From NCBI RefSeq assembly GCF_048128805.1, contig NC_136008.1, positions 12,690,572 to 12,754,571 of the forward strand: 64,000 nt of DNA, in the 5' to 3' direction. This document shows, in pieces, positions 28,953-38,280 of this stretch. Origin of the DNA: Centroberyx gerrardi (taxonomy: Eukaryota; Chordata; Actinopteri; Beryciformes; Berycidae). Positions within the stretch are counted from its first letter, which is position 1; each line of letters begins with the position of its first letter. The notes beneath the pieces are model-generated. The model made no database searches. It worked only from the letters and a program-made list of their open reading frames with translations, and had not been told where the DNA came from. The translations under genes and the position numbers were made by a program.

Positions 28953-31363
28953 ATGTCACTGCCAGGTGAGAAACATTAACTTTGTGCATATTAAGACATT
29001 TTTGACAAACTTTGTTTTGCAAATCTATGGAAAAATAATTGAATAACGGAACTGATTATTAGATTGTCCAGTTTAATAATCAGTAAATTAAACACATTTT
29101 TTTTGACAAGCTTGTCTTGTTAACATTGAATTTCCAGTGCGTTAACATTCATTATATTGGAGTTGGGTCAGCAACAGGCTCTGTTTATATAGTTCCTGCA
29201 CAAATAGCTAATTGAAGCAGGAAATGAGGTGATGTTTCTTAGTATGTATGCCTTTTGAACGTACCGTGCAAACCACAGAAAGTTTCCACCAATTAATCTG
29301 AATCTCTCTCCACCTCTTTCTCCTCCCCCTTCCTTTCTCTCACTGTCTCCCAAACAGTTTTGCTGTTGCTATCATTCTTGACTGTCCAATGTGGTGGATG
29401 TGACTTTGACTGGGAAGGTGTCAAAAACATTAAAACAACTATCGACTCTAACCCAACTGGATTTGTAAGTTTAACACTGATTTTACTTGGCCCTCTTCCC
29501 ACCTTGACTGACTGTGTGTACAGAGTCAATCATTCATTGTTTCTAAAGTGTAGAGGATCCTGTGTGTAAGAGTAAGAGTGTTATCATGTTGTCACCCAAA
29601 GAGTTAAGTTACCTTCTATCCTTTAAAAAGTATCATCACTTTTATTGATTGTGCAATCAATGATTTTGTAAGTGGTGGTCAAAGGGTGGAGGTGTAGTTT
29701 TCAAACAAAACTCTTCATATCTTTAAGCATCTTTGAGTATCTAGAAAAATGTATTATTAAGGAGATTTAATTGACCAAATGAACAAAGTTTCATACCTTG
29801 ACCCTTACAGTCAAACATTACTGTTCACCATTCACATGCCCAGTAACACAAGGTCAAGGGGATCAAACAGTGTACTATTGTTTCACCTTTGTAGTTAAAT
29901 TGCTCCTTAATTCCTTCATAATTTACCAGTCATGCATTGTTCTTTTCAAACTCACAGTGTAATTTACCTATTTCTTCATCTATCAGTTTATTCACATCTT
30001 TGTCTCTGTTTTTTCCTTCTAGCGGACAGTATTTCCTAAAGATTACTATGTTGTGCACCACTACAAACAAGGCATGCTGTGTGACACTGATCCGGTGAGT
30101 TGTTGCATCATTTACAAAGGAAAAATAAGGATTATATATACATACAATAAATGGGTCATAAATCTTAAGTCTTACAGTATTTTTCCACATCAAACTTGTC
30201 CTGTGAGACATTTTAGTGTTTTTTAACAGGATGGCCATTAGCTTTCACCTAATCTTCATGGAGTTTTTAAATACCAGATGATCAAGGCTCCGTGTGAGCC
30301 CTTGCTCTGTGTACCCACAGTTAATCTCATCGATCTGAGATTATGTTCTCTTTTCTGAAAACATATCTTCCTTCCAAGTTGTCTTGGGTTTCATCTGTCA
30401 GTGGTTGAGTGATGTGATCCTTGTCATGATTTGTCAGAGGTGTTGTGCATGATAAAGTGTTGCTTCTTGCTACTTTTATTACAACTTTTTTGCTTTGACA
30501 ACAGATACTGAAGTATTTAATGCCAATAAAGCTCATTAGAATATTATTTTGAATTTTGATTTGGTTCTTTCTTTCCCTCCAGTGTTGTGTGTTTCCCGCT
30601 GCAGTTGTCCTCTTGGATTCCTGGCATGTGCTTCTCAGAAACCTGTACAACGAACACTTAAATCAGTCCTTCATCTTCGATCTAAAGCAAACACTGGATA
30701 AAATTATAAAGAGGAACAAACATACAGAGGTATGAATTTAAAAAAAAACATGTTGTTTAATAGACAAGGTAACCAATGGCCAGAACTATCTCACATTGCT
30801 TGTCATGTGATTGTTTACTGCATTCATGACCCTGTTGGAATCATTATTCAATTTATTATGTGAACTTAAGTAAAGTACATTCATCTGGGACATGTATTTG
30901 TTTTCCTGTAGACAGATCTTATGACCTGAAACCTCTCTCTTACTGTCTAGTGCAACTCCATACAGACTGTTTACTCTAACTTCTCTTCTCTCCTCCTTTC
31001 TCACAGAGGTTCCAGGAGGAGACGGATCTCTCCAGCCTCCCATCAATCCTGTCCTCTCCAGAGGATCTGCTCAGTTTCACCTCAGAGATTTTCTCTAGGT
31101 GGCTAAAGGTTGGGTGCTCACCCTCGATTGAAACATGCTCCCTCCCCACTCTGCCCCCCTCCTCTGCTGAGAGGGAAGAGCTCGCCCCGTCCAGAGCCAG
31201 ACTCTTGACCACCCGGTCTGTCAGCGGGTCGGAGGAAGGACAGAGGGAGAACATGTTGGACATTACACAACCGCCGGTCAACGGTGGTCCGCTATCCTTA
31301 TCCTTTCCTGCTTCCGTCTGGAGCACTCTGCTATTTAGACTTTATTGGTGGTTGTTGCCATAG
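28953..31363 (+). CDS. SCF/FLT3-ligand-type four-helix cytokine, membrane-tethered or secreted
   Basis: Five exons: 28953-28965, 29358-29464, 30023-30094, 30583-30729 and 31007-31363. Phases join exactly and give 231 residues. Exon 1 codes only MSLP plus one base; exon 2 completes a clear signal peptide (MSLPVLLLLSFLTVQC). Exon 3 carries FPKDYYVVHHYKQGM-LC and exon 4 begins CC, so the 21-residue spacing from PKDY to Cys65 equals that in stem cell factor. The exon break just before the cysteine also matches SCF as I recall it. A segment SSPEDLLSFTSEIFSRWL corresponds to the last SCF helix (TPEEFFRIFNRS...). Candidate disulphide cysteines are C19, C60, C65, C66, C150 and C157, with one N-glycosylation site at N91. 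A Ser/Thr/Pro-rich stalk leads to a hydrophobic C-terminus (about 208-231) ending at the stop codon. A KITLG-like or FLT3LG-like protein is most likely; CSF1 or IL34 fit less well. Confidence 0.72.
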
Positions 31364-31646
31364 TTACTAAAATGGATCTCTTAGATGATGCACACAAAAT
31401 GCAAAAACATTTTCTGGCACTGAATGATTGTTTCTCACATGGTCTTTGTATTGTAATGCCATAAGCTTTGTTAATATGAAGTGACATGCACAGGTTGCAT
31501 TAACTGTCCAAAGGTAGTTAAAATAGTTGAGCTCACTTCACACCAGTGCTCTGTAACAGCTGATATCACACTTATAAACTCATAACCATCCTGTCTAGAG
31601 CAAGCCACGAGCTCCAGCTAGCTATGCTCTTTTATGGGGGTCATCC

Positions 31647-31875
31647 CTATGTTCCCTCAGCCCTATGTTCCCTCAGCCCTATGTGTTTAGGCAAGGAGCT
31701 CGTATGGTTGAGGTTAGGGTTAGGGTTGCTTGAGGTCGAGTGGTTCCAGGGCAGATGAGGTGGTTGGGTTGAGGCATGAGGTCACTGAGGTTAAGGTTAG
31801 AGCAAGCTTGCGGTCAAGGCTGTCAGAAGGTAAGTTGGGATAGGGTTGAGGGAACATAGGGCTGAGGGAACATAG
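31647..31875. mobile_element. Foldback (MITE-like) element with 28-bp perfect inverted arms
   Basis: The left arm 31647-31674 (CTATGTTCCCTCAGCCCTAT...) is an exact reverse complement of the right arm 31848-31875. Each arm is itself a partial tandem of CCTATGTTCCCTCAGC. The interior (about 170 bp) is G/T-rich with TTAGGG-like stretches. No open frame and no clear target duplication was seen. It is probably a non-autonomous DNA element inside or just beyond the cytokine 3' UTR. Confidence 0.7.
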
Positions 31876-33539
31876 ACACGCTCCCCTCTTTATGCTAACA
31901 AGTGTTAAAATGCTGGGCGAGCCTCTGCACATAAGCCATGTCTATTTGATGTGAAATTCATCACTGTTTACAAGGAATGCTTAAATGTCAGATATTTTTG
32001 TCCATATACGTTTACTTTTGTACATAATTGTAAATTAAAGCCATTTAGATACAAACATTGTCAGTTGCTTTTTAACTTGTTTTAGTTGGTGTAAGGGTTA
32101 TCTGGGAAATACTATCCCCAGTGTAGCAACTGTTATTTTGGTTCTTTGCTGTTTGTTCAATAAGAAGACTTTCAGACTCATATTTTGTTCTGCTGAAGTA
32201 GTTAATATTTTATTTGTTTGAGACATTACAGTGATAAGACATGGTTTGTAAGGCAGAGTCAGGGGAAGCAGTTTGTGTAGTAGTCGACATGAGGTCAACT
32301 ATAAATCATCACTGCTAGCTCATTCCGAGTCATTCCAACCGAGCGAATAATTAATTACTATGGTGTAACTCTGATATGTGTATAACAGCCTGTAAGATAA
32401 AGCGCAGATGAAAGAGGAATGCACTTGAACGGGGCTCCAGACCGTCGTGCCTCACGGTGCCTGCTGCTATCACGCTCTTCATGAAAAATAAAGAGCACAC
32501 TTTAGTGTTCATACTTGCCCCTGCATGTACACACCCACGCATGTCATTTGCACCATTATCCTCAATGGGCCCTCTCTGCTGTTTCATAATCCATAAAATA
32601 CTAAGCATATGTATTGTTGAGTTGTTTTCCAAGGAATCTTACATTGTTTTGGCCCCTAGCGATCGACTTTTGGATTTCACCTACTGAGGTTTTACTGGCC
32701 TTTTTTCCAGGGGATTTAGCCTTAATGTAAAATGTCTGTGATTTACAGTAGGTCACATAAGGTAAAGAGGAGATATGGGAGTATAGGTCAAACATGAAAT
32801 ACAGCGTGAATAAAAATGACAAAGAATTACATCATCCTCCCCAGAGAAAACAAGGGAAGGGAACGCAGAAAACAAAAGTTAATCTAAAAACGACTTAAAG
32901 TGTACCATTCTTCTGGGCTGCACATTTGTATGCAAGGTTTTTTTTTTTTTCTTTTTCGTCACAAAACCACAAAGACATGTTGTGCCCGCTGCGTCGTATC
33001 AGACTAATTTGCAGTACCTGTCACTGAAGCACGCTACAACATTCAGGCTGCCCACCAGTCTATACTGTTCATTGCCAGTTCTGAGGCGGGCTGCCAAACT
33101 CCCTGTTCCTCATTACTGGGACAAGGTTTACTGACCCCAGTGTCAGTGCCAGGCCAGGCTCTGTGTGACAAGTCCTTACAATACATTAGGGCACATCAGG
33201 ACCTGCACAAGTATAGAGTCAGTCGTAACTTTGAATGCATGCTTGTGCTCAGTCTGCATGCACCAAAACCAAAAAAAAGCAGTCCTTCATACCATCTAAT
33301 TACTGACACCAGTGAAGAAAATGACTCATGCATCCCCTTAGATTCTGCAATGCCACCCTTCCATGAATATTCAAGTTTAGAAATCATTATTGTTGTGTGG
33401 ATTTCCGAGGCAAATGCTTTCAAATAGAGCCTGATCTTTACTGGCAATGTGGTTGGATGAGCCAGAGGGGCCAGCTGAATTCCCGTAAACGGGGGGGAGC
33501 GAGGGGGACGCGGGGCAGCATGGGAGGGGTGTGGAGGAG

Positions 33540-33594: not shown

Positions 33595-38280
<4,686 letters not shown>

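Follow-up and report, generated by a model that had tools for sequence, protein, structure and literature searches.

A probable diverged SCF/FLT3L-type cytokine gene in the fish Centroberyx gerrardi and its candidacy as a teleost FLT3LG ortholog

Introduction

SCF (KITLG) and FLT3 ligand (FLT3L) belong, together with CSF1 and IL34, to a general family of short-chain helical proteins that act on class III receptor kinases. The SCF/FLT3L/CSF1 members are four-helix bundles that dimerize non-covalently, and they are made with a signal peptide as precursors anchored in the membrane. In the numbering that we assume throughout, SCF is held by the disulfides C4-C89 and C43-C138, and FLT3L has a third disulfide, C93-C132. 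The human SCF gene presumably carries phase-0 introns around the segment encoding helices A to B, with an exon break shortly ahead of the first core cysteine. One mouse FLT3L isoform has a hydrophobic end and is without a cytoplasmic tail.

According to a 2018 review, FLT3L is present in Latimeria and the elephant shark but potentially missing in zebrafish, where divergence may have hidden it, and section 9 of the same review places both the receptor Flt3 and dendritic-like cells in zebrafish (PMC6306437). Among the literature matches listed, the titles and the openings of the abstracts name no described teleost FLT3LG, a statement that concerns the published literature and not automated annotation. 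Here we describe a gene of the beryciform fish Centroberyx gerrardi that may encode the fish FLT3 ligand, which two papers, the review among them, describe as possibly missing or unidentified. It lies in a window of 64,000 nucleotides (NCBI RefSeq assembly GCF_048128805.1, contig NC_136008.1, positions 12,690,572 to 12,754,571), and positions below are those of the window unless a contig is given.

Results

Gene model and coding signal

Spliced translation of the + strand joins five exons in frame into a product of 231 residues that ends at a TAG stop codon (Table 1), and all of the introns are GT-AG, with phases 1, 0, 0, and 0. The five phase-consistent exons proposed in an earlier, sequence-only reading are thereby upheld, and the start and stop codons are the ones given there. 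Splice sites were ranked among the 418 GT and 449 AG sites between 27000 and 33500 (6.5 kb); in the order of the introns, the donors are outscored by 1, 16, 2, and 7 sites and the acceptors by 26, 2, 5, and 0, so that every junction falls within the top 6% of local sites. In a codon model trained on the neighboring genes, with three frames compared per exon, the frame of the candidate is the best-scoring one in every exon, with a minimal margin in the 13-nt exon 1, and over the whole coding sequence it scores 0.8 nats versus -39.3 and -54.6 nats in the other two frames, a score that none of 1000 base shuffles reached. The absolute codon score is near zero and drops below it for exons 2, 3, and 4. 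A chance-assembled model or a decaying pseudogene might be suspected from this low absolute score, from a first coding exon of 13 nt, and from the moderate acceptor of exon 2, but 231 codons free of any stop or frameshift, high-ranking splice sites, and the best coding frame in each exon make a non-functional locus very improbable, and we regard the candidate as almost certainly a real gene.

Two extensions of the model were considered and rejected. An upstream alternative start (MSILRKIKGCHCQ) leads, by reading only, to a stop within exon 2 in that phase. An added 3' exon encoding a transmembrane helix and a cytoplasmic tail would need a donor inside exon 5, where the internal donors score at most 4.7, compared with 5.7 to 10.8 in those used, and the single acceptor scoring above 5 between 31363 and 33560 gives no useful frame. 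The apparent start codon of GRWD1 follows at 33595, 2.2 kb past the candidate stop. The 3' flank of the gene also contains a foldback (31636-31886) with 47-nt arms that are 87% complementary and a 157-nt spacer with GTTAGGGTTAGGGTT-like repeats, which looks like a small mobile-element remnant.

Table 1. Features of the candidate gene, in window coordinates
Feature	Position	Strand	Remarks
Exon 1, coding part with start codon, 13 nt, phase 1	28953..28965	+	Donor GTGAGA: 1 higher of 418 GT sites
Exon 2, completes the signal-peptide-like start and encodes the N-terminus with C19	29358..29464	+	Outscored by 26 of 449 AG sites (acceptor) and 16 of 418 GT sites (donor)
Exon 3, 24 codons, holds PKDY, phase 0 at both ends	30023..30094	+	Smith-Waterman z 4.7 versus SCF, 1/1000 shuffles
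PKDY motif, residues 45-48	30035..30046	+	Also in human SCF and C4 kitlg; PTDY in C24 kitlg
Exon 4, 49 codons, starts at CC pair (C65, C66), phase 0 at both ends	30583..30729	+	
Sole N-glycosylation sequon, NQS, residues 91-93	30661..30669	+	
Exon 5, the final one, with a region like helix D, then the stalk, the hydrophobic end, and the TAG stop	31007..31363	+	Best acceptor of 449
SPEDLLSFTSEIFSRWL, aligns with last-helix regions of SCF and FLT3L (FSRC in FLT3L)	31055..31105	+	
NGG, residues 205-207, a possible GPI attachment site (the other being SLS)	31280..31288	+	Putative, by a simple residue rule
C-terminal hydrophobic end FPASVWSTLLFRLYWWLLP, residues 213-231, without cytoplasmic tail	31304..31360	+	Wimley-White octanol sum -13.35
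First downstream polyadenylation signal, ATTAAA	32034..32039	+	

Anatomy of the predicted protein

The N-terminus (MSLPVLLLLSFLTVQC) reads as signal-peptide-like, in keeping with the signal peptide that had been proposed. The pattern PKDYx5YxxGMx6C occurs with identical spacing in the candidate and in human SCF, the cysteine being the 21st residue counting from the proline exactly as in human SCF, and in the kitlg gene on C4 it comes two residues earlier. The exon 3/4 break falls directly before the cysteine pair, and the proposed helix running from SPEDLL to IFSRWL is located in the last exon, so that these three elements of the earlier reading are also in the sequence. The end of this putative helix, FSRWLKVGCSPS, resembles FSRCLELQCQPD of FLT3L, and the N-terminal CDF of the candidate resembles the CSF of FLT3L.

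The cysteines of the product are C16, C19, C60, C65, C66, C150, and C157, the first of them probably within the signal peptide. By their position, C19, C65/C66, and C157 can stand for SCF C4, C43, and C138, the last of which follows the final helix, and C150 could stand for FLT3L C132. No cysteine of the candidate matches SCF C89, C60 and C150 being extra, and in the assumed FLT3L numbering there is none at C85, C93, or C127, although C150 aligns with C132, the partner of C93. With the partner of the SCF-type C4 missing, at least one disulfide would have been lost or rearranged. Both kitlg genes of the same genome likewise depart from the SCF cysteine pattern.

The candidate, unlike SCF, is without a transmembrane segment followed by a cytoplasmic tail. 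Its C-terminal end is the lowest 19-mer of the protein by the octanol sum and starts five residues after the NGG site, and a second possible attachment site, SLS at 210, passes the simple residue rule too. Such an end can look like a GPI signal, and the protein is possibly GPI-tethered, with the arginine inside the hydrophobic stretch being an unfavorable feature.

Sequence similarity of the whole protein

The 231-residue product was searched against Pfam at E up to 10 and matched neither SCF (PF02404) nor Flt3_lig (PF02947), nor any other relevant family; its sole line was a weak zinc finger (E 0.057), under the cut-off. A single-sequence search of 177,635 PDB sequences, again at E up to 10, returned three matches, all of them SCF, with E-values of 0.43, 0.44, and 0.78. 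In pairwise comparisons in which the candidate was shuffled 500 times and aligned with SCF, FLT3L, CSF1, IL34, and eight unrelated helical cytokines, the local alignment z was 7.2 for human SCF (0/500 shuffles as high) and 3.4 for FLT3L (4/500), followed by 1.7 for the best of the unrelated cytokines, 1.3 for CSF1, and -1.1 for IL34. The global z values were 5.9 for SCF, 2.9 for FLT3L, 2.6 for IL4, and 2.2 for CSF1, and there is thus no clear sequence signal for CSF1 or IL34. Identity in a MAFFT alignment was 28% to human SCF, 22% to the kitlg on C4, and 17% to FLT3L.

The candidate scored above all 5000 shuffles with a mammalian SCF profile (4181 of them were reported), and in the same test the real FLT3L was equalled or beaten by 2703/5000 shuffles, which means that known members of the family often cannot see each other. 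With an FLT3L profile the match was weak (69/5000 shuffles reached the score of the candidate), and a profile of fish kitlg failed to recognize the candidate (416/5000 as high). Pairwise z values were 3.35 for the C4 kitlg and 0.14 for the C24 kitlg, of which the former counts for nothing because that alignment is out of register. As judged from these alignments, family similarity is beyond chance at the level of the whole protein and is strong for SCF, and the candidate is overall nearer to SCF than to FLT3L.

Similarity by exon and selectivity across the locus

Exons 3 and 5 differ in what they resemble. For exon 3, 1/1000 shuffles scored as high against SCF and 9/1000 against the C4 kitlg, and there was no match to FLT3L; for exon 5, 7/1000 shuffles were as high against FLT3L and 96/1000 against SCF, and this exon resembles FLT3L, not kitlg. 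Exons 2 and 4, shuffled alone, match none of SCF, FLT3L, and kitlg. The sequence-only reading had left the choice between an FLT3LG counterpart and a third kitlg-like gene, and the exons divide along the same line, exon 3 leaning to the kitlg side and exon 5 to FLT3L.

Each exon was also ranked among 5624 open reading frames (ORFs) from both strands of 224 kb. With human SCF as query, exons 3, 5, 4, and 2 ranked 10, 99, 175, and 242; with FLT3L, exon 5 came first (51 versus 50 for the next) and exons 4, 3, and 2 ranked 1746, 2175, and 2665; with the C4 kitlg, the ranks of exons 3, 5, 4, and 2 were 89, 675, 2895, and 2928. A blind spliced alignment over both strands of 344 kb, with 96 peaks kept, placed the candidate locus 9th for SCF, 1st for FLT3L (51 to 50), and 37th for CSF1. 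Of the eight SCF peaks that rank higher, seven belong to the C4 kitlg region, namely kitlg itself, five peaks that we read as its shadows, and one on the reverse strand, and the remaining one is an ORF of 2222 codons next to a kinase exon of LMTK3-like type (named by eye, with the Pfam kinase match just under the cut-off). The spliced alignment is only moderately selective, and its scores are close to background. Taken with the whole-protein tests, the similarity is real at that level, but alone it would not single out the locus.

Comparison with the kitlg genes of the same genome

A kitlg query against the whole genome (779 Mb, 278 contigs) finds genes on C4 and C24 only. These two share their phases and align with each other at a score of 344, and such a pair is in line with a teleost genome. 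Since the candidate lies on C12, it is neither of these two genes. Exons 3 and 4 have 24 and 49 codons in the candidate, 19 and 51 in the C4 kitlg, and 19 and 53 in the C24 kitlg, with phase 0 at these boundaries in all three; the exon 3/4 break lies 0 residues before the cysteine in the candidate and 3 residues before it in the kitlg genes. Exon 2 starts in phase 1 in the candidate versus phase 0 in both kitlg genes as read. With regard to the Pfam result, in a six-frame search a kitlg exon on C4 itself falls under the SCF cut-off, at 16.5 of 21 bits.

Besides the candidate itself, the only paralog-like match in the genome was on C15 (E 2.67, 27% identity); it contains an internal stop and crosses the exon 3/4 junction without an intron, and we take it as chance. 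After reading of the frames, a PF02404 match at C12:17087687 (E 0.68, internal stop) was likewise taken as chance. A sub-threshold Flt3_lig match on C2 (E 2.27) is also taken as chance. No Flt3_lig match exceeded the cut-off anywhere in the genome, and C12 had none at all. Both C4 and C24 also hold strong PRMT1/PRMT8-type matches, which we take for PRMT8; PRMT8 is presumably on human chromosome 12 and would fit a human-chromosome-12 origin of the two kitlg copies.

Membership in the SCF/FLT3L/CSF1 family, as the earlier reading had it, is therefore supported by the sequence tests (PDB, shuffles, and SCF profile) and by the kitlg-like phases and sizes of exons 3 and 4 with a break near the same cysteine, and we consider it probable. 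The alternative is a secreted helical protein or other cytokine without descent from this family, in which PKDY, the cysteine, and the exon phases agree by chance. A protein of this kind would sit well with the silence of Pfam, PDB E-values of 0.43 or worse, near-background scores across the locus, a cysteine pattern that fits only in part, and the failure of exons 2 and 4 to match any of the three ligands on their own. It would have to explain, though, why the PDB sequences listed were SCF in three of three cases, why none of 5000 shuffles reached the SCF profile score, and why two exon boundaries share their phases and nearly their positions with kitlg, and we think it improbable.

Genomic neighborhood

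Between 12700 and 63488, LENG9-, folliculin-, GRWD1-, CDC42EP-, LENG8-, and RBFOX-type genes are close-packed (named by eye and in part by Pfam). Pfam recognized 6 of 10 ORFs in the window, with AKAP7_NLS and MJ1316 (LENG9-type), WD40, BORG_CEP, RRM, and Folliculin_C, and gave no match for the first folliculin ORF, the GRWD1 ORF, and two LENG8-type ORFs; of the ORFs in the flanks it recognized 7 of 8 (Josephin, UQ_con, bZIP, Cir_N, Nop, NOT2_3_5, and, narrowly short of the cut-off, a kinase). By eye, we take the genes to be LENG8, LENG9, GRWD1, CDC42EP, JOSD2, UBE2S, DBP, LENG1, PRPF31, CNOT3, and LMTK3, most of which are presumably genes of human 19q13.33-q13.42. Folliculin is on human chromosome 17, unlike the 19q13.3-q13.4 genes packed beside it. 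With matches accepted at E up to 0.001, nothing outside C12 matches the LENG8-, GRWD1-, folliculin-, and Josephin-type pieces, in contrast to the bZIP and UQ_con pieces, which have matches in other places too. By its gene content, the neighborhood is a block of the human-19q13 type.

Human FLT3LG presumably sits between JOSD2 and GRWD1; here the Josephin exon is 40 kb away from the candidate, and GRWD1 is 2.2 kb away. The earlier argument for FLT3LG from the adjacent GRWD1 is weak as it was put, because in human the two genes are about 1 Mb apart. The wider block is of the 19q13 type, but of the genes close to FLT3LG in human, RPL13A has matches on C17 only, and C7 carries NOSIP together with the best matches to PRMT1. 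Such a scatter might have arisen if copies were lost unequally once the teleost genome had duplicated. The RPL13A matches at C17:12344919-12357179 form two sets of exon matches about 9 kb apart, with a stop inside one match of the first set. Among PDB records, 7qwq_O, with 500 residues, bears the name of ribosomal protein L13a and aligns with FLT3 ligand over residues 31-171 (E 1.8e-73); it is apparently a gene-annotation read-through of adjacent FLT3LG and RPL13A. This L13a record, holding a whole FLT3L, suggests that the two genes are adjacent in a mammal.

Discussion

The gene on C12 shares with SCF/KITLG the PKDY motif at the same distance from the cysteine, a further cysteine behind the final helix, phase-0 boundaries at exons 3 and 4, and the best sequence match, and it differs in having no cysteine at the position that we number C89, in its C-terminal end, in the phase at which exon 2 starts, in lying below Pfam detection, and in occupying another genomic block than the kitlg genes. 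With FLT3LG it shares the end of the last helix, the N-terminal CDF/CSF, and the 19q13-type neighborhood, and it differs in its cysteines, in the 17% identity and weak profile match, and in the dispersal of RPL13A, NOSIP, and PRMT1. Given membership in the family, orthology to FLT3LG is somewhat favored, and taking everything together we hold, with about even confidence, that the candidate is a short-chain helical cytokine of the SCF/FLT3L/CSF1 family, secreted or membrane-tethered, and most likely the fish FLT3LG ortholog. Counting against the FLT3LG reading, the similarity to FLT3L is confined to exon 5, and the global z of 2.6 for IL4 is near the 2.9 for FLT3L.

It is conceivable instead that the candidate is an old duplicate from the KITLG side that binds Kit, with fish FLT3LG lost or elsewhere. 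SCF is the strongest match in the PDB search, the shuffles, and the profiles, exon 3 matches SCF and the C4 kitlg and not FLT3L, the PKDY motif and the cysteine spacing are those of SCF, and several genes close to FLT3LG in human lie on chromosomes other than C12, all of which this history would accommodate. It is harder to reconcile with both kitlg genes lying on contigs with a presumed PRMT8 while the block of the candidate is of the 19q13 type, with a fish-kitlg profile that does not recognize the candidate, and with an exon 5 that is like FLT3L and not like kitlg. We judge a third kitlg-like gene to be unlikely, and a fish flt3lg to be the more likely of the two.

If the candidate is a fish flt3lg, it is tempting to see in it the missing FLT3 ligand of teleosts in a particular form, with a first half that is partly SCF-like, disulfides that have been lost or rearranged, and a GPI anchor in place of a transmembrane helix and tail, though this fuller picture is tentative. 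We infer the fold, the dimer, the receptor, and the tether, and on that basis the protein would be displayed on stromal or immune cells by its hydrophobic, GPI-like C-terminal end and might be released when the stalk is cleaved. A pair of such ligands would then hold two class III receptor kinase molecules together, with Flt3 as first choice and Kit as second, and this bridging would drive the growth of blood progenitors and dendritic-type cells.

With the gene model in hand, fish immunologists could make the factor and grow fish dendritic cells, and it could be asked whether SCF and FLT3L both go back to a single ancestral ligand. Should the candidate turn out to be a third Kit ligand, Kit signaling in fish would be richer than the two-ligand scheme.
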